Shown here piece after piece: positions 3,377 through 11,671 of a DNA stretch of 64,000 nt. The translations under genes and the position numbers were made by a program. The DNA comes from Methylobacterium sp. CB376. Lineage in GTDB: Bacteria > Pseudomonadota > Alphaproteobacteria > Rhizobiales > Beijerinckiaceae. Location: contig NZ_CP121648.1 in assembly GCF_029714205.1 (NCBI RefSeq), positions 3,800,001-3,864,000 on the forward strand. The letters are read 5' to 3'. The notes under the pieces are model-generated. The model was not told the DNA's origin. It ran no database searches and saw nothing but the letters and a program-made list of their open reading frames with translations. Each line of letters begins with the position of its first letter. Positions within the stretch are counted from its first letter, which is position 1.

Positions 3377-4303
3377 TCAGAGCGCGAGCAGCTCCCGCAC
3401 CTCGGCCGGCCAGCCCGCGAGGTCGAGCCCGTGCGTGGCGAACAGGGCCACCGCGAGCCGGTCGATGCCGAAGGCGACGCAGCCCGTGTGGGCCGGCTCG
3501 CCGGACGCGTCGCGCAGGTTCCAGGTCGTCCCGAAATGCTCGCGGTGGTAGTTGAAGCTCATGCAGGCCGTCGCCGGCCCGTCGCCGCGCAGCGGCACCA
3601 GCAGCTCGAATTTCAGCGCCTGTTCCAGCTGGTTGAGGGCCATCAGCTGGCCGACGCGGCCGAAGAACGGGTCGCTCGCCTGCGCCACCTCGTAGGTCAG
3701 GCCGAGCCGGTCGGCCAGGGCCGTCGCCTTGTCGAGCCAGCGCTGGCGGAAGGCCTGGATCTGCTCCGGCGTGCCCACGCAGACGTATTCCCGCATCCGG
3801 AAGGATTGCAGCCGGTCGAGGTCCTTGGACGGCTCGCGGCGGAAGCAGTCGCAGGCGACGTCGAAGCGGTAGCCCTCCGCCGGCACCGCCCCGCGGGCCG
3901 CCGCGATCGGGTAGACCGGGTAGCAGGCCGCCGGCGTCAGCACGAGGTCGGCGGAGTCGAGCGCCTCGGTCCAGTCGCCGCCGGCGTAGTGCCGGTCGAC
4001 GGCGCCGCGGATCTCCGCCTCGCTGCCTTCCAGGCAGGAGACGCAGCCGAGCAGGTTCGGGAAGCTCTTGAGGTAGCCGTGGGTCTCGATCTGGCGCCGG
4101 CTCATCACCGGCGGGAAGCGGAAGACCTCCGTCCCCTCCTCCCGCTGGCGCGAGACCAGGGCCTGCAGGGCCTCCGCCACCGCCTCGTAGCGGCCGGTGC
4201 GGGCATAGACCCCGTCCGCGCCCATCGGGCGGAACAGCCCGTCGAACAGCCGGTCGAGGGCATCCACCGCCGGCGGGGCCGGCTTCTTCCAACGCATGTT
4301 CAT
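3377..4303 (-). CDS. amino acid:[carrier protein] ligase (class II seryl-tRNA synthetase-like)
   Basis: 308 residues, a stand-alone homologue of the catalytic core of atypical seryl-tRNA synthetase lacking the tRNA-binding arm. Characterised relatives in Bradyrhizobium and Agrobacterium activate glycine or alanine and load it on the phosphopantetheine of a carrier protein instead of tRNA. Seen here: class II motif 2 (CFRREP, then SFRMREYV), motif 3 (GCVAFGIDRLAVALFA) and the three expected zinc ligands C127, E172 and C275, spaced as in the Bradyrhizobium enzyme. The carrier protein and a flavoprotein lie next door. The substrate amino acid cannot be read from sequence. Confidence 0.92.
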   Translation of the reverse strand: MNMRWKKPAPPAVDALDRLFDGLFRPMGADGVYARTGRYEAVAEALQALVSRQREEGTEVFRFPPVMSRRQIETHGYLKSFPNLLGCVSCLEGSEAEIRGAVDRHYAGGDWTEALDSADLVLTPAACYPVYPIAAARGAVPAEGYRFDVACDCFRREPSKDLDRLQSFRMREYVCVGTPEQIQAFRQRWLDKATALADRLGLTYEVAQASDPFFGRVGQLMALNQLEQALKFELLVPLRGDGPATACMSFNYHREHFGTTWNLRDASGEPAHTGCVAFGIDRLAVALFATHGLDLAGWPAEVRELLAL

Positions 4304-4343
4304 GGCGTCACCGCGCGTGTCGAATCGGGTCGGGGGGCGGGGG

Positions 4344-5579
4344 TCAGTCCCGGAGCGAGGCCGGAACCGTCGAGAGCAGGGCCGTCGCCGCGAGATTCGC
4401 GGTGATGCGGTCGTTGTGGATCATGATCGGCGCCGACAGGATGTCGCGCAGCGCCCGGCCGATGCTGAACGGCCCGTCCTGGCGGTAGCCCGCGAGGCCG
4501 CAGGCCCGCATGGCGCTCGACACCGCCGCGAGCGCGAGTTCCGAGGTGTCGACCTTCAGCATCGTGATGGCGGTCTGGAAATCGAGGCTGCCGAGGCTGC
4601 CGGCCTCGCCGGCGGCCGCGTAGCGGGCGATGCCCTCGGTGATCAGGGCGCGCAGGCTGCGCAGCGAGGCCGCCGCCCGGCCGTAATGCGCCGCCCCCGG
4701 CGGCATCTGCCCGCCGGCCCCGCGGGCCGCCTGGCGCGTGAAGGCCTGCGCCCGCTCCACCGCCCCGGCGGCGATGCCGGCCCAGGCGCTCGACCACAGG
4801 ATGTGCGAGACCGGCGTCATCGACTCGGCGTGGATGCGCGCGTAGGGCACCGCCAGGATCTGGTCCGCCCCCCCGCGCGCCCGCAGCCGGAAGCCGATGC
4901 TGCTGGTGCCGCGCATGCCGAGCGTCTCCCAGCCGCTCAGGCGCTCCAGGGTGTAATCCTCCTTCAGGAAGACCGCGAGCACCTGGTCGGAGGCGGCCGC
5001 GTCCGGGGCGCGCCGGGCCGTGGTCACGATCCCGTCCGCCTCGGCCCCGTAGGAGATCACGGTCGCGGCCCGGTCGAGGGTGACCGCGTCCCCGTCCCGC
5101 TCGATGGCGGCGGCGCTGGAGCGGACGTTGCCGCCGCCCTGCCCCTCGGTGGTCGAGGAGGCGAGGAGCAGCTGCTCGGCGCAGAGGCGGCGCAGCAGCC
5201 CCTCCTGCCAGGGCTGGCCGCGCCCGTGATCGACGATGCAGGCGACCTTGGTCAGGTGCATCGCGTAGATCATCGCCGTCGAGGCGCAGGCGCGGCCGAG
5301 CGCGTAGCAGACATCCGCGGCCGCCGCGAGGCTCGCGCCCTCGCCGCCCAGCTCCCGCGGCACGGTCAGGCCCAGCAGCCGCTGCTGCTTGGCCGCCGCC
5401 ATCGCCTCGGCCGGGTAGCGGGCGTCGCGGTCCACCGCCTCCGCGTGGGCGGCGGCGATGCCCGCCACCACGAGGGCGCGCAGGCCCGGCTCGACCGAGG
5501 CGGCCGCCTCCGCGGCGGAGGCGGCCGCCTCCGCGGCGAGCGCGCCGCCGGCCGGGATGCTCTGGATGGTCATGCACAA
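4344..5579 (-). CDS. acyl-CoA dehydrogenase-like flavoprotein of the carrier-protein cluster
   Basis: 411 residues with the acyl-CoA dehydrogenase fold: helical N-domain (LTVPRELGGEGASLAAAADVCYALGR cut into the usual blocks), beta domain (ASSTTEGQGGGNVRSS) and C-terminal helices. It ends 40 bases upstream of the ligase and probably shares its transcript. In the known ligase loci such a flavoprotein accompanies the carrier protein, which suggests it oxidises an aminoacyl or acyl group held on the carrier; that role is inference. The usual catalytic glutamate region is divergent. The N-terminus holds an AAEAAAS duplication coded by a 21-bp tandem repeat. An ATG two codons downstream of the chosen one is an equally good start. 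Confidence 0.82.
   Translation of the reverse strand: MCMTIQSIPAGGALAAEAAASAAEAAASVEPGLRALVVAGIAAAHAEAVDRDARYPAEAMAAAKQQRLLGLTVPRELGGEGASLAAAADVCYALGRACASTAMIYAMHLTKVACIVDHGRGQPWQEGLLRRLCAEQLLLASSTTEGQGGGNVRSSAAAIERDGDAVTLDRAATVISYGAEADGIVTTARRAPDAAASDQVLAVFLKEDYTLERLSGWETLGMRGTSSIGFRLRARGGADQILAVPYARIHAESMTPVSHILWSSAWAGIAAGAVERAQAFTRQAARGAGGQMPPGAAHYGRAAASLRSLRALITEGIARYAAAGEAGSLGSLDFQTAITMLKVDTSELALAAVSSAMRACGLAGYRQDGPFSIGRALRDILSAPIMIHNDRITANLAATALLSTVPASLRD
5497..5538. repeat. 21-bp tandem duplication in the acyl-CoA dehydrogenase-like gene
   Basis: Two perfect adjacent copies of a 21-bp unit starting gaggcggccgcctccgcggc. The length is a multiple of three, so it duplicates AAEAAAS residues near the N-terminus without breaking the frame. 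Looks like recent slippage. Confidence 0.85.
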
Positions 5580-5860
5580 CCCCTCTGGTTCGATGCTGCG
5601 GGCGCCGCGTCCGCTCTCCCGGCGGATCGCCGCGCCTCTCCTCTGCGGCAGGACAAGTACCGACGAAAACCTAAGACATCCTGAGCGCCGAGCACGAGAT
5701 CACGCCGCCCACTTGGCTTGCGAACGGAAACGCAAGGATCATTAAGTCTAATTTTGCGGAAATCCTTGGGCCGCCATCCGACGGGAATGCGTGCACCAAG
5801 TCGTAAGGCGGGTGCCGCATCCTGGCGCCCGATACCGCTCAGCGCACCGGAGGATCGTCG

Positions 5861-6136
5861 ATGACCGCATTCCCGCCGACCGACATCGCGGCCCGCACGG
5901 CCGGCCTCGTCCAGGGCATCCTGGCCCAGAAGGGGATCGAGAGCCGGCCCGCGCCCGACACCTTCCTGACCGAGGCGGGTCTCACCTCCCTCGACCTCGT
6001 CAACCTGATGCTGGCGATCGAGGCCGAATTCGACATCACGATCCCGGCGAGCCATCTCAACCCGGCGAGCTTCCGCACCCTCGCCTCGATCAGCGAGATG
6101 GTGCGCGCCGTCGGGGCCGGGTCGGTGGCGGCCTGA
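5861..6136 (+). CDS. stand-alone acyl/peptidyl carrier protein
   Basis: 91 residues. The phosphopantetheine attachment motif is GLTSLDLVNLML with Ser43, in the place of the usual DSL. The four-helix carrier-protein pattern is otherwise intact (FLTEAGL, IEAEFDITIPASHLNP, FRTLASISEMV). The SLD form of the motif and proximity to the ligase match the small carrier proteins that aminoacyl-carrier-protein ligases charge. It is divergent from the flavoprotein across a 281-base gap and is preceded by GGAGG. It needs a phosphopantetheinyl transferase encoded elsewhere. Confidence 0.9.
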   Translation: MTAFPPTDIAARTAGLVQGILAQKGIESRPAPDTFLTEAGLTSLDLVNLMLAIEAEFDITIPASHLNPASFRTLASISEMVRAVGAGSVAA

Positions 6137-6697
6137 GGCGAAGCGGGTCGGCGCGCCGCTCGGGCCGGCCTCCGGGACCCGCCCCCACCCGCCCACTCGC
6201 CGCACCTGGCTCATTCCGACCCCTCCGCGCAGGGTGCCCCGGGAACCCGTCCCGCTCCGGTCCGGCCGGCCGCGCCGGCTGTCCCGCGATGGCGCGAAAC
6301 GGCTGCCGCGGCAGCGCCTGTCGCCGCTACCCTGCAAGTGTGGGCCCACCCGCAAGGGCGGGCCCCCCGGACCGGCCCGTTGCGCCGCGGCGGCGCCCGC
6401 GGCGCCGCGCGGCCGGACCCGGAGCGTGGGCGGTCCCGAAATGGACCAGTTTCCTTTCCGGCGGGACGGCCGGCGACCGGTTTTCGTTCCTAACCCTACG
6501 GAATGAGTGCCGGAACACGACATTTTCCGGCATCCCGACTTGGTTTCCAATTTGCTGCGATCGGGGCACGGGGAGCCGGCGAGGCTCCCGGAAGGGTCGC
6601 CCCGATGCCCGCTTCCTCGATGCCCAGTCCGTTTTCCGCGCCGCTCGGAGCCGCTCCGCGGCGGCCCGGCGGCGGTCGCCGAGCGCGGGGAACCGGG
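6137..6697. other. 561-base intergenic stretch with an 8-bp inverted repeat
   Basis: No convincing gene. The left part (to about 6430) is very GC-rich and low in complexity. The right part (about 6435-6560) is less GC-rich, with T-rich runs, and holds a TGCCGGAA / TTCCGGCA inverted repeat at 6508-6532. It probably carries the promoter of the following two genes. Open frames across it in all phases are a product of high GC. Confidence 0.5.
6508..6532. promoter_or_regulatory. inverted repeat upstream of the WecG-like gene
   Basis: Perfect 8-bp arms (TGCCGGAA and TTCCGGCA) with a 9-base spacer, in the AT-richer part of the intergenic region 165 bases before the next start. It could be an operator for the nearby TetR-type regulator or a small hairpin. 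No T-run follows it, so it is not an obvious terminator. Confidence 0.4.
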
Positions 6698-7474
6698 ATG
6701 CGCGTCGACCTCCTCGGCCTCCCCGTGGACCTCCTCGGGCGCGACGAGACCCTGGCGCGGGCCCTCGCCGCCATGGCGGGCGAGGCGCCGCCGCTGCGCC
6801 ACGCGGCCCTCGACGTCGCGACCCTGGTGGCGGCGCGCCGCGACGCGGCGCTCGCCCGCGACCTGCGGGAGAGCGACCTCGTGAGCGTGGCCGGGAGCGG
6901 GATCGCCCTCGCGCTCTGGCTCGCCGGCCGCGGCGCGCGCCCGCGCGTGGCGGGGATCGACCTGTTCGACGGGGTCCTGGAGGGCTGCGAGCGGCGCGGC
7001 CTGCGGCCCTTCCTGCTGGGGGAGGCGCCGGACGTCGTCGCGGACGCGGCCCGCGCCCTGCGGCGGCGCCACCCGCGCCTGCGCCTCGCGGGCCGCCACC
7101 ACGGCCATTTCCGCCCCGACCAGGAACCGGAGATCTGCCGCCGGATCGCGGCGAGCGGCGCGGACGGACTCGTCCTGTCGCTGCCCGCCGGCCTGCGCCA
7201 CGGCTTCCTGCGCCGCAACCGGGAGCGCCTCGCCGTGCCGCTCGTGCTGAGCGCGGAGGGGGCCTTCGCGCTCACCGCCGGGCGGATGCACCGGGCGCCC
7301 CCCCTCGTCCGGCGCGTCGGGGCCGAATGGGCCTACCGGGCGGCCCAGGATCCGCGCCGGCTCGCCGGGCGGGCGCTGCGCAGCAACGCCGCCTTCGCCG
7401 GGCTCCTGCTCGCGGCGCTCCTGCGCCGCCTCGCCGATCCCCGCCTCCCGGCGGGATCGGGCCTGCGGGCCTGA
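6698..7474 (+). CDS. degenerate WecG/TagA/CpsF-family glycosyltransferase-like protein
   Basis: 258 residues. The fold signature of the WecG/TagA/CpsF family is clear: RVAGIDLFDGVLEGCERRGLRPFLLGEAPDVV spread over residues 85-120, and the C-terminal tail VGAEWAYRAAQDPRRLAGRA. The catalytic motifs are altered. The PDG block that supplies the general-base Asp reads VAGSG (Asp replaced by Ala), the TPN motif is lost (LDVAT), and the PKQE block reads SLPAGLRHG. It is probably not a normal N-acetylmannosaminyl transferase. Start chosen at the ATG after CGGGGAACCGGG; in-frame upstream codons give an Ala/Pro/Arg-rich tail unlike the family. Confidence 0.72.
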   Translation: MRVDLLGLPVDLLGRDETLARALAAMAGEAPPLRHAALDVATLVAARRDAALARDLRESDLVSVAGSGIALALWLAGRGARPRVAGIDLFDGVLEGCERRGLRPFLLGEAPDVVADAARALRRRHPRLRLAGRHHGHFRPDQEPEICRRIAASGADGLVLSLPAGLRHGFLRRNRERLAVPLVLSAEGAFALTAGRMHRAPPLVRRVGAEWAYRAAQDPRRLAGRALRSNAAFAGLLLAALLRRLADPRLPAGSGLRA

Positions 7475-7519
7475 GGCCCGCCCCCGCCCCTTCCCGTGAC
7501 CCGCCGACAGGAGACCACC

Positions 7520-8956
7520 GTGATCGCCCTCGACGTCGCCACCGGCGCCCTCGAACGCCTGCCCCACGGCGCCCGGGACCGGTTCGCCCGCGCGTGGCGC
7601 AGCCTGCCGGCCGGCCTGCGCTACGGGCGGGCCTACGGGCGCTGGCGCGCCCGCATCCGGCGCGCCGCGGCGGATCCGGCCTTCGCGTGCGCGGCGCAGG
7701 ACGAAGCCCTCGCGGCCCTGGTCGCGCGGGCGCGCGCCGACAGCCCGGCCCATCGCGAGCGCCTCGACCCCGTCCTGGGCGCCGGCGCCCTCGACGGCGC
7801 GGCGCTGCGCGCCGTCTGGCCGCGGATCCCGATCCTCACCCGCGAGGAACTCGCTCGGGACGCGACCCGCTTCTGCACCACGGATCCCGGGCGGCTGCGC
7901 GACTGCATCCTGGTCGACCGCAGCGGGCAGAGCGCGCGGATCTTCCTCGATCGCGGCCTCGACCCGGTGGCGCTGGCCTTCCGGCACGAGGCATGGGCGC
8001 GGGCCGGCTTCACGCCGCAGGCGATGCGGGCGGTGTTCCGGGGGCTCGATCTCGGCGCGCCGAGCTACATGCAGGAGGCGCCCGGCGAGGGCGAGCTGCG
8101 CTGCTCGGTCCTGCATCTCTCGGACGCGGTCATGGCGGGCTACCTGGAGGCGATCCGGCGCTGGGGCATCGCCTTCCTGCAGGGGCTGCCCTCGGCGCTC
8201 TGCGTCTTCGCCGCCCACGTGCTGCGCGAGGAGGGGCCGCTCCCGCAGGTCACCGGGGTGCTGCCGACCTCCGAACCGCTCTCGGGCCCGGCGCGGGCGA
8301 CCCTGGAACGGGCCTTTCCCCGGGCCCGCCTCGTCCCGGTCTACGGGCTGCGCGAGCAGGTCGCCTTCGCGGCCGAACGGCCCGGGGCGCCGGATTGCTA
8401 CGTCTTCGACCCGCTCCACGGCCTCGCCGAGATCGTCGACGGCTCCGGTCGGCCCCTGACCCGGCCCGGCGCGCGCGGGCGGCTGGTCGCGACGGGGCTC
8501 CTCGGCGCGGGGATGCCGCTGATCCGCTACGAGACCGGGGACGAGGCCGAACTCGTCGAGGCGCCGGACGACCGCAACGGGCGGCGCCTCACCGTCCGGC
8601 GGATCCGCCCCCGCAGCGCGCCCGAGACGCTGCTCGGCCGCTCCGGGCTCAAGGTGCCGCTCGCGGACATGATCCAGCTCGATCCGGCGCTCCTCGGCGT
8701 CGGGGCCTTCCAGTTCGTGCAGGAGGAGCCCGGCCAAGTGACCCTGCGCGTCGTCCCGAGCACCGGGCCGCTGCCCGACTTCACCGGCTTCCTGCTGCGG
8801 ATGGGGCGCCGGCTCGCGGGGGAGCTCGACCTCACCCTGGAGATCGTCGACCGGCTCCCCACCTCCCTGGCCGGCAAGCGCCCGATCGTCGCGCGATGCC
8901 TGCGGGCCGGTCCCGCCGGGCCGCGCGCCGCGGCGCAGGCGCGGCTCCCGGCCTGA
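7520..8956 (+). CDS. CapK/PaaK-like adenylate-forming enzyme with divergent P-loop
   Basis: 478 residues of the phenylacetate-CoA ligase/CapK superfamily. Recognisable motifs are TGVLPTSEPLS, VPVYGLREQVAFAAE (the YGxxE adenine/Mg motif) and LIRYETGDEAELVE (the Y-x-TGD ribose-binding Asp). The normally Ser/Thr/Gly-rich P-loop is replaced by LVDRSGQSARIFLDR, so ATP chemistry may be changed or lost. The GTG at 7520 follows AGGAG by six bases and is preferred over an in-frame GTG at 7496. It lies 45 bases after the WecG-like gene on the same strand, so the two are probably cotranscribed. Substrate unknown. Confidence 0.72.
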   Translation: MIALDVATGALERLPHGARDRFARAWRSLPAGLRYGRAYGRWRARIRRAAADPAFACAAQDEALAALVARARADSPAHRERLDPVLGAGALDGAALRAVWPRIPILTREELARDATRFCTTDPGRLRDCILVDRSGQSARIFLDRGLDPVALAFRHEAWARAGFTPQAMRAVFRGLDLGAPSYMQEAPGEGELRCSVLHLSDAVMAGYLEAIRRWGIAFLQGLPSALCVFAAHVLREEGPLPQVTGVLPTSEPLSGPARATLERAFPRARLVPVYGLREQVAFAAERPGAPDCYVFDPLHGLAEIVDGSGRPLTRPGARGRLVATGLLGAGMPLIRYETGDEAELVEAPDDRNGRRLTVRRIRPRSAPETLLGRSGLKVPLADMIQLDPALLGVGAFQFVQEEPGQVTLRVVPSTGPLPDFTGFLLRMGRRLAGELDLTLEIVDRLPTSLAGKRPIVARCLRAGPAGPRAAAQARLPA

Positions 8957-9009: not shown

Positions 9010-10263
9010 ATGTCCCCGCCCCTCGACATGGTCGACCCGCCCGCCGCGCCGGAGGCGCCCCCGCGCCAGACCAGGCGCTACGCCCAGAAGCGGGACGCGA
9101 TCCTGCAGGCCGCCGTCGCGCTCTTCAACGAGGCGGGGGTCAAGGGCGCGACCCTCTCGGAGGTCGCCCGGCGGGTCGGCCTGATGACGAACAGCGTCAC
9201 CTACTATTTCCGCCGCAAGGAGGATCTGGCGGCCGCCTGCTTCCTGCACACGATCGCGGTCCTCGACGCGCTGGTGGCCGAGGCCGAGGCGGCGCCCGAC
9301 CCGGCGGCGCGGCTGCGCCGCCTCCTCGACCTCACCCTCGCCAAGCGCGCCGCGGTCGCCACCGGCGCCGAGCCGGACACCGCGGTCCTCAACGACGTGC
9401 GCGCCCTGCCCGAGCCGCAGGCCGAGGCGGTGTTCTCGGCCTACGCCGACCTGTTCCGGCGCCTGCGCGGGCTGTTCGACGAGGCCGGGCTCGACCGCGC
9501 CGAGCGCAACGCGCGCACCCACCTGCTCCTCTGCGTGATCCACTCGACCCGCCTGTGGATCGACCGCTACGAGCCGCGCGACTACGGCCGGGTCGCCGCC
9601 CTGGTGAGCGACCTGCTGCTGGGCGGCCTCGCCGGCCCGGCCGCCGCCTGGTCCCCGGCGATCCTGCCCGAGCCGGCGCGCCCGCCCGAGAGCGAGGTCT
9701 CCCCCGAGGCGTTCCTGCGCGCCGCCACCATCCTGATCAACCAGCAGGGCTACCGGGGCGCCTCGGTGGAGAAGATCTCGGGGCTGCTCAAGGTCACCAA
9801 GGGCTCGTTCTACCACCACAACGACAACAAGGACGACCTCGTCGCCCATTGCTTCTCGCGCAGCTTCGCGCAGATCCGCGCCGTGCAGGACGCCGCCGAC
9901 GCGGCGGGCGGCAGCGGCTGGGCGCGGCTCTGCACCGTCTCGGCGACGCTGGTGCGGCGCCAGCTCGGCCCGGCCGGGCCGCTCCTGCGCGTCACCGCCT
10001 TCAGCGCCCTGCCGGAGGCCCTGCGCACGCAGACCCGCCTGACCATGAACCGCCTCGCCGAGCGCTTCACCTTCTGCCTCGTCGAGGGCATGGCGGACGG
10101 GTCGGTGCGGGCCCACGACCCCGGCATCGCCGCGCAGCTCGTCAGCAGCATGATCAACGGGGCCGCCGAACTGCCCGCCTGGGTGCCCGGCGTGACGCCC
10201 GAGACCGCCGCCGACCTCTACGCCAGGCCGCTCTTCCTCGGCCTCTTCGCGCCGCCCGCGTAG
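9010..10263 (+). CDS. transcriptional regulator with two tandem TetR units
   Basis: 417 residues containing two complete TetR modules in one chain. HTH 1 is at about 22-75 ([19 protein letters not shown], then RRKEDL) and HTH 2 at about 228-282 ([18 protein letters not shown], then NKDDL). Each is followed by a helical ligand-binding region. Such double-TetR proteins behave like a covalent dimer and often control acyl-CoA metabolism genes, which fits the acyl-CoA dehydrogenase 157 bases downstream. The frame is open far upstream because of GC content; the start is set by the TetR N-terminal arm. Confidence 0.88.
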
Positions 10264-10420
10264 AAAGAGCGGTACGCCGCCCCCGCCCGGGGTCTGCCCC
10301 CGACGGGCCGCGCTTTCGAAAACCGGGTTCTGCGCGCAGGGTTTTCCCGCCGCGGGACTCGGCGCTAGGGTGTGGGACGATGCCGGGGCGCTCCGACCCC
10401 GGCCCGGGAGGAGCACGCCG

Positions 10421-11671
10421 ATGGACTTCACCCTCTCCGAGCGGCAGCGGCACTGGCGCGACCGGGTCGTCGCCTTCATGGACGAGCACGTCCGGCCGAA
10501 CGTCCCGACCTACAAGGCCGAGATGGAGGGGTTCGGCAGCGACCGCTGGCAGCCGGTGCCGGTGATCGAGCGCCTGAAGCCCCTCGCCCGCGCGGCCGGC
10601 CTCTGGAACCTGTTCCTGCCGCCCTCCCCGGCGCACGACACGCCCGAGTATCGCGGCGCGGGCCTCACCAACCTCGACTACGCGCTCTGCGCCGAGGAGA
10701 TGGGCCGCGTGCCCTGGGCCTCCGAGGTGTTCAACTGCTCGGCGCCCGACACCGGCAACATGGAGGTGCTGCACCGCTACGGCTCCCCGGCCCAGAAGGC
10801 GCGCTGGCTCGCGCCCCTGATGGCGGGCGAGATCCGCTCGGCCTTCCTGATGACCGAGCCCGACGTCGCCTCCTCGGACGCCACCAACATCGAGACCCGG
10901 ATCCGCCGCGACGGCGACCATTACGTGCTCAGCGGGCGCAAATGGTGGTCCTCGGGCGTGGGCGACCCGCGCTGCGCCGTCGCCATCGTGATGGGCAAGA
11001 CCGACACCGACGCCCCCCTGCACCAGCAGCAATCGCAGATCCTCGTGCCCCTCGACGCGCCCGGAATCAGGGTGGTGCGGATGCTGCCGGTCTTCGGCTA
11101 CGACGACGCGCCGCACGGCCACGCCGAGGTGATCCTCGAGGAGGTGCGGGTGCCGGCCGAGAACCTGATCCTCGGCGAGGGCCGCGGCTTCGAGATCGCG
11201 CAGGGCCGGCTCGGGCCGGGGCGGATCCACCATTGCATGCGCACGATCGGCGTCGCCGAGGAGGCGCTCGCGGCGATGTGCCGGCGGCTCCTCTCGCGCG
11301 TCGCCTTCGGCAAGCGCATCGCCGACCACTCGGTCTGGGAGCAGCGCATCGCCGAGGCCCGCATCGACATCGAGATGACGCGGCTGCTCTGCCTGAAGGC
11401 CGCCGACATGATGGACAAGGTCGGCAACAAGGGCGCCAAGCTCGAGATCGCCATGATCAAGGTCGCGGCGCCCCGCATCGCCCTCAAGGTCATCGACGAC
11501 GCCATCCAGGCCTTCGGCGGCGCGGGCGTCAGCAGCGACGCGGGCCTCGCCTACGCCTACGCGCGGATCCGCACGCTGCGCCTCGCGGACGGGCCGGACG
11601 AGGTCCACAACCGCTCGATCGCCCGGCTGGAGCTGGCGCAGTACGGCAACCGCGAGCGGGCCAAGGCCTGA
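10421..11671 (+). CDS. acyl-CoA dehydrogenase family protein (ACAD10/11-like)
   Basis: 416 residues. It contains the FAD/substrate blocks [15 protein letters not shown] and [16 protein letters not shown], and a C-terminal helical domain with [15 protein letters not shown], typical of the bacterial relatives of ACAD10/11. The family oxidises acyl-CoA esters, passing electrons to electron-transfer flavoprotein; hydroxylated acyl groups are known substrates for the subgroup. The start MDFTLSERQ follows GGGAGGAG. It probably responds to the double-TetR regulator upstream. Confidence 0.9.

Follow-up and report, generated by a model that had tools for sequence, protein, structure and literature searches.

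Amino acid:carrier-protein ligases are tRNA-independent enzymes resembling seryl-tRNA synthetase (SerRS), and the described system closest to the one considered here is that of Bradyrhizobium Bll0957 (structures 3mey for the ligase and 4h2s for its carrier, protein family NF005479), with glycine as what we take to be its substrate. In a note added in proof in 2010 (PMC2922099), Iyer and colleagues described such ligases as accompanied by an acyl carrier protein, a redox enzyme, a glycosidase, a conserved open reading frame (ORF), Atu2574, and genes for liposaccharides, and predicted the aminoacylation of surface sugars. A passage of a 2022 review (PMC9437257) still calls their role unknown, in agreement with the original prediction made for the DNA studied here, which held the physiological product to be unknown. 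This DNA is a 64,000-nucleotide stretch of Methylobacterium sp. CB376, hereafter the window (G000:C1:3800001-3864000, in a two-contig genome of 7.69 Mb), in which five genes between positions 3377 and 8956 encode a ligase, a flavoprotein, a carrier protein and WecG-like and CapK-like proteins. All five ORFs lie where the original prediction had placed them, as the members of a single pathway. We consider it fairly probable that the region instead associates a functional trio, whose second module is located far away in the chromosome, with unrelated and decayed leftovers of a polysaccharide cluster.

On sequence comparison, the ligase, flavoprotein and carrier are a genuine and already known three-gene amino acid:carrier-protein ligase trio. 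The SerRS-like ligase (3377-4303, minus strand, 308 residues), identical to that of Methylobacterium sp. WSM2598, reaches 470 bits against NF005479, above the curated cut-off of 357, and aligns with Bll0957 (3mey) over residues 8-308 (E = 2e-141). Its CYPVYP, FRMRE and HTGC motifs align with those of Bll0957 and hold the Cys, Glu and Cys that are presumably the zinc ligands. The carrier protein adjoining it, CP1 (5861-6136, plus strand, 91 residues), is oriented divergently from the ligase and flavoprotein, matches the PP-binding model with 34 bits and carries a serine attachment site in a GLTS motif. Its best match in the PDB is aminoacyl carrier protein 1, the carrier of Bll0957 (4h2s_C, E = 1e-16), and it scores 51 bits, below the curated cut-off of 72, against NF005480, which we regard as the family of partner carriers for the NF005479 ligases. 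The association announced by the original prediction, of a tRNA-independent ligase with an adjacent carrier and flavoprotein, was confirmed: both partners were matched in every one of the 80 ligase loci compared. These loci, the best 80 among at least 580 confirmed stretches, are closely related, come mostly from Bradyrhizobium and in some cases have short flanking sequences. Between the window and the related genome G726, ratios of nonsynonymous to synonymous substitution rates (dN/dS, by the Nei-Gojobori method without codon-bias correction throughout) were 0.15 for the ligase, 0.21 for the flavoprotein and 0.24 for CP1; the ligase and flavoprotein are under strong constraint in the window lineage. 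A table of PMC10888616 gives bll0957 and bll0958 the same fold change of 3.0 in a phaR mutant, a mere hint of joint regulation.

The neighbourhoods of these ligases fell into two contrasted types. A total of 109 loci were clustered, comprising 30 of the best 80, after a thinning of Bradyrhizobium, 59 of 62 matches from genomes of the window's family (excluding the window's genome and two matches that were weak or partial) and 20 further chosen loci. According to identity with the window ligase, itself a-type, 59 were assigned to the a-type (at least 58%), 43 to the b-type (40-57%) and 7 were distant; removing four duplicates left 55 a-type loci. Neighbours were counted by tblastn; gene calls missed some genes, the ligase itself being called in 46 of the 55 a-type loci. 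Among these 55, we detected an adenylation domain protein (A-domain) in 38, a second carrier protein (CP2) in 39, a GNAT-like protein in 35, MetY in 31, LipP1 in 28, MetA in 26, an aminotransferase in 25, PRK08279 in 24, a thiamine diphosphate (ThDP) enzyme in 23 and a cupin in 19, and none of these ten was found by tblastn in any of the 43 b-type loci. Conversely, DUF1839 (41/43) and GH2 (39/43) marked the b-type loci and were found in 0 of 55 a-type loci. In Methylobacterium and Methylorubrum, the a-type locus reaches 14 genes, encoding the PRK08279 synthetase, MetA, MetY, cupin, aminotransferase, ThDP enzyme, CP1, flavoprotein, ligase, LipP1 hydrolase, CP2, A-domain, short-chain dehydrogenase/reductase (SDR) and tandem GNAT, all side by side over ~15.5 kb in two loci (L011 and L005); in Rhodopseudomonas and others, the order differs and much of the membership is kept. 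We list the ThDP enzyme, MetA, MetY, PRK08279, LipP1 and cupin as neighbours only, and set aside the SDR counts (40/55), inflated by unrelated SDRs (in L001, probably also in L196).

In the b-type loci (L162-L191 and others), carrier, flavoprotein, ligase, DUF1839 and GH2 follow one another in one direction, forming a second conserved locus type. We take the b-type to be the Atu2573 type, from the 2010 description rather than by alignment. The neighbours given in that note in proof (PMC2922099) fit the b-type loci. Four distant ligase relatives (L219, L220, L239 and L242, 30-35% identity) share a neighbour of ~332 residues (cluster C50) and hold none of the a-type or b-type genes counted. In L211, L214, L215 and L217, MetY and MetA directly follow the ligase and may make methionine or supply the pathway with a gamma-substituted amino acid.

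The presence of the A-domain follows that of the a-type ligase at the scale of whole genomes. Searching 149 genomes of the family with the A-domain of L002 (E ≤ 1e-40, weakest hit 6e-120) recovered it in 32, that is in 26 of the 26 with an a-type ligase and in 6 of the 123 others (Fisher p = 1e-23, uncorrected for relatedness). Seven of these genomes belong to the window's genus: four possess both the A-domain and an a-type ligase, and three (G008, G049, G147) neither. Several observations speak against so tight a partnership: the six remaining A-domain genomes have a b-type ligase (four) or no ligase (two), 17 of the 55 a-type loci lack the A-domain on the DNA examined, and the GNAT is accompanied by neither A-domain nor SDR in three loci of Bradyrhizobium (L022, L034 and L048), the CP2 match of L022 being moreover doubtful. 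The four genomes with the A-domain and only a b-type ligase (G007, G016, G048 and G113) could reflect module exchange. The PRK13356 aminotransferase, which served as a control family, is weak as specific evidence, being enriched but common (85/149 genomes; 24/26 with an a-type ligase, 61/123 others; p = 4e-5) and much less specific than the A-domain.

The window genome has its own copy of this second module at C1 7.149-7.154 Mb, ~3.3 Mb from the trio. Its A-domain (C1:7151749-7153140) is a 73% identical orthologue with intact LLTSGTTGVPK, YASTE and DTGD motifs, the next match in the genome having an E-value of 1e-15 and 27% identity, and it is surrounded by genes for a ThDP enzyme, a GNAT, CP2 (LVETGLDSL) and an SDR. 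Neither the 30 kb at the module nor the 13.5 kb beside and overlapping the window gave a match to MetA, MetY, PRK08279, LipP1, the cupin or the aminotransferase; a PRK13356-family aminotransferase is encoded at C1:5995967. The GNAT has no match in Pfam or NCBIfam at the thresholds used and none among PDB sequences, and its predicted structure (mean predicted local distance difference test score, pLDDT, of 88) folds as a tandem GNAT and matches GNAT structures at TM-scores of ~0.5-0.6 over the query, the Eis-like ones ranking first. The likely partners of the trio would thus be the products of this second loading module, elsewhere in the chromosome, and the pathway of the window strain appears to be split over two loci.

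The flavoprotein (4344-5579, minus strand, 411 residues from a TTG start, with an in-frame ATG at 5573) belongs to the acyl-CoA dehydrogenase superfamily by its profile matches (PF02771/PF00441) and lacks the canonical catalytic Glu near the C terminus. In the corresponding column the window protein has Met, as do 94 of the 95 rows aligned for its family, some of which are near-duplicates; since Met is the conserved state of this family, the missing Glu is not a mark of decay. An acyl-CoA dehydrogenase encoded nearby (10391-11668, plus strand) has, unlike the trio flavoprotein, Glu at the same column. The 12 first chains returned by Foldseek for the flavoprotein model (m997044bee28c, mean pLDDT 82) correspond to three class D flavin monooxygenases, DszC, TdsC and KijD3. 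Classical desaturation of a glycyl-CP1 would be impossible, because glycine has no beta carbon, and we infer that the flavoprotein oxidises its substrate at the C-alpha-N bond or at the nitrogen rather than by alpha,beta-desaturation. Part of the evidence points the other way. The first dehydrogenase of the Foldseek list has the same E-value as rank 12, sequence searches place dehydrogenases first among PDB matches, the model is weakest near the missing-Glu motif, and the conserved a-type locus holds no recognisable flavin reductase. In addition, Thr replaces the Glu in 7p98, the best match by profile search, and therefore the absence of this residue does not exclude dehydrogenation.

The two remaining genes probably have a different history. 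The WecG-like protein (6698-7474, plus strand) matches PF03808 with 139 bits; its longest ORF starts at 6503, and its relatives start at the ATG equivalent to 6698. The CapK-like protein (7496-8956, plus strand) has weak matches to AMP-binding and PaaK-type models, the former below the gathering score. Alignment of WecG with TagA (7mpk) and three relatives, and of CapK with relatives, corroborated the loss of catalytic motifs reported by the original prediction for both proteins. In the window WecG, Asp and Ala replace the Asn and Asp of the TagA TPN and PDGSG motifs, and PKQE is lost (PAGLRH); we take the TPN, DG and PxxQE-type motifs to be catalytic. Both residues are kept in G726, Methylobacterium crusticola and M. 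oryzihabitans, with PAPQQE, PTPQKE and PTPAKE, respectively; A-L stands in place of the T-P of TPN in these three as well as in the window. In the window CapK, the P-loop reads VDRSGQSA and YGLSE has become YGLRE, both being motifs that we presume to be functional in this family; M. crusticola and M. oryzihabitans have TGGSSGRP and YGLSE, and G726 has GDGASRP and YGLRE. Motif loss is thus restricted to the window species for WecG, and to the window species and G726 for CapK.

After CP1, M. crusticola (L002, L260) carries in this order wzz, heparinase, wecB, wecC, wecG, wzx, glycosyltransferase and capK genes, and the same order is implied for M. oryzihabitans (L193/L150), one heparinase gene of which is split over two contig ends; G726 has the compact order of the window. 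Measured against this full cluster, six of the eight genes seem to have disappeared from the window lineage, and wecG and capK, the two that remain, seem to have lost their motifs there. The CP1-WecG junction (6137-6697), equivalent to the place occupied by wzz, heparinase, wecB and wecC in M. crusticola and, apparently, in M. oryzihabitans, yielded no tblastn match to these four genes better than E = 0.1, and close wecB and wecC relatives are absent from the window genome (best matches 42% and 40%). From these comparisons, WecG and CapK are probably relics of a polysaccharide cluster, with no part in the pathway of the trio; the likely order would be loss of the cluster, then decay of CapK, then decay of WecG, with both direction and order deduced from the relatives.

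The distribution of the pair bears directly on the original prediction, in which all five genes serve a single pathway and the aminoacyl carrier is the substrate of two unconventional transferases, the WecG-like and CapK-like proteins. The two genes do lie on the strand of the carrier, 21 bp apart, and both reading frames remain open in G726 as in the window species. Of 111 genomes of the genus, however, only 5 have a CapK relative (E ≤ 1e-20), two of these 5 being from the window species, and the relatives with the full neighbourhood have the pair among wzz, wecB, wecC and wzx with most motifs kept. Outside the genus, a CapK relative (42%) was found in G002, on a contig without ligase. No match to the ligase, flavoprotein or carrier was detected in 12 stretches around WecG or CapK relatives of 11 other genomes of the family, some of whose assemblies are so fragmented that linkage could be missed; for one of the 11, G108 (M. 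oryzihabitans), the trio is presumed next door across a contig break. The original prediction had itself set against its pathway an absence of the pair from all other ligase loci, and this absence is nearly complete: in the flanking DNA of the 80 trio loci, CapK is matched once (L001, of the same species) and WecG twice (L001, and L002 at ~7 kb from the carrier). It is not total: the CapK of L002 is placed just beyond the DNA examined, that of L003 on another contig, and the compact set is also present in G726. With a WecG/CapK linkage found in no more than five genomes of the genus, we rejected the five-gene pathway as very improbable, together with the role of non-standard transfer enzymes.

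Substitution rates temper the view of WecG and CapK as mere leftovers. Their open frames count against it, as do their dN/dS between the window and G726 (0.27 for WecG, 0.55 for CapK): the WecG value does not exceed the one separating M. crusticola from M. oryzihabitans (0.34 for WecG, 0.36 for CapK), and therefore its decay is recent or a role remains. The proteins could then be pseudoenzymes, retained for a new non-catalytic function in binding or regulation, separate from the trio or helping it. Directly after CapK, a gene (9010-10260, plus strand) encodes a 417-residue protein that matches TetR_N twice; its counterpart in G726 has the same position and 90% identity, a conservation that would suit such a function. 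We nevertheless regard retained pseudoenzymes as rather improbable, with CapK at 0.55 against 0.36 between the full-cluster species, and with WecG values relative to these two species higher for the window (0.51 and 0.54) than for G726 (0.34 and 0.44). Furthermore, the WecG of G726 keeps the Asn, Asp and PxxQE, so much of the constraint may predate the decay. Between the window and WSM2598, WecG differs by three nonsynonymous and one synonymous substitutions, and CapK by two and three. Overall, the constraint on both genes looks relaxed in the window lineage, and not absent. On its outer sides, the region is flanked by the tandem TetR gene and by an ORF of 169 residues with a gene that we take to be greA.

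The vicinity of polysaccharide genes also raises the alternative that the trio serves to aminoacylate an amino sugar in a polysaccharide or lipid of the cell surface, in line with the prediction in the note in proof of PMC2922099. The DUF1839 and GH2 genes of the b-type loci are much as described there, the trio has polysaccharide genes for neighbours in M. crusticola and M. oryzihabitans, and the fold matches of the tandem GNAT include glucosamine N-acetyltransferases. A Wzz relative (tblastn, E ≤ 1e-5) was also found on 13 of the best 80 loci and on 9 of the 32 b-type loci of the family, a nearness counted at ligase loci alone, without a ligase-free control. Yet DUF1839 and GH2 are missing from all a-type loci, and the ligase and flavoprotein have remained strongly constrained in the window lineage, where the cluster is gone. 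Such a surface-sugar product is possible but unlikely for the trio.

Returning to a trio served by a distant module, the following route can be proposed. The SerRS-like ligase would adenylate a small amino acid, most likely glycine, and load it on the phosphopantetheine of CP1, where the flavoprotein would act on the aminoacyl group while it is tethered, oxidising its C-alpha-N bond or its nitrogen to give an imine or an N-oxide. CP2, loaded by its own A-domain, may supply the partner acyl group with the help of the FabG-like reductase, and the tandem-fold GNAT might join the two or offload the product. WecG and CapK would be leftovers that decayed after the loss of the other six cluster genes, and would take no part. 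More broadly, we suggest, with somewhat less than even confidence, that a-type ligases belong to an undescribed two-carrier locus of Hyphomicrobiales, of up to 14 genes, in which a CP1-bound amino acid is oxidised at the nitrogen or C-alpha-N bond and condensed with a CP2-bound acid, leading to a new family of small molecules. No mention of the a-type neighbourhood or of its A-domain module was found in the literature searched, a search that did not include the 2010 PNAS and 2013 Structure papers, so that it has possibly been published.

These results separate amino acid:carrier-protein ligases into two types by genomic setting, each with its own set of partners. For the type of the window, they designate a second carrier, an A-domain, a reductase and an acyltransferase as leads testable in cultivable methylotrophs, and they remove a false lead, the degenerate WecG and CapK. 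Among known systems, the latter resemble by sequence the WecG/TagA/CpsF glycosyltransferases and CapK/PaaK ligases, of which the window copies lack the catalytic motifs. A parallel in the way of working, compared by description, is provided by the hydrazinoacetyl pathway of azaserine and triacsin (AzsF/Tri22, AzsP/Tri29, AzsQ/Tri30, AzsS/Tri31), for which the relevant parts of PMC10445470 report a stand-alone AMP ligase, a carrier, an N-acetyltransferase and an acyl-CoA dehydrogenase homologue acting on a carrier-bound N-substituted acetyl group. There, AzsF, the dehydrogenase homologue, is among the proteins that turn the carrier-linked hydrazinoacetyl into a hydrazone, the dehydrogenation being assigned to its homologue Tri22. 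A tRNA-synthetase-like protein is also involved, in that case a class I MetRS-like domain within a fusion and not a SerRS-like loader. The b-type loci share the ligase, flavoprotein and carrier with the window, and differ by a carrier on the same strand, by DUF1839 and GH2, and by having none of the A-domain module. Finally, the Bll0957 system matches the window in its ligase over nearly the whole length and in the kind of its carrier, and Bradyrhizobium loci also have the divergent orientation of the carrier and the adjoining flavoprotein, whereas most of the Methylobacterium/Methylorubrum and Rhodopseudomonas loci examined add to these an A-domain, CP2 and an SDR, placed at a distance in the window genome.

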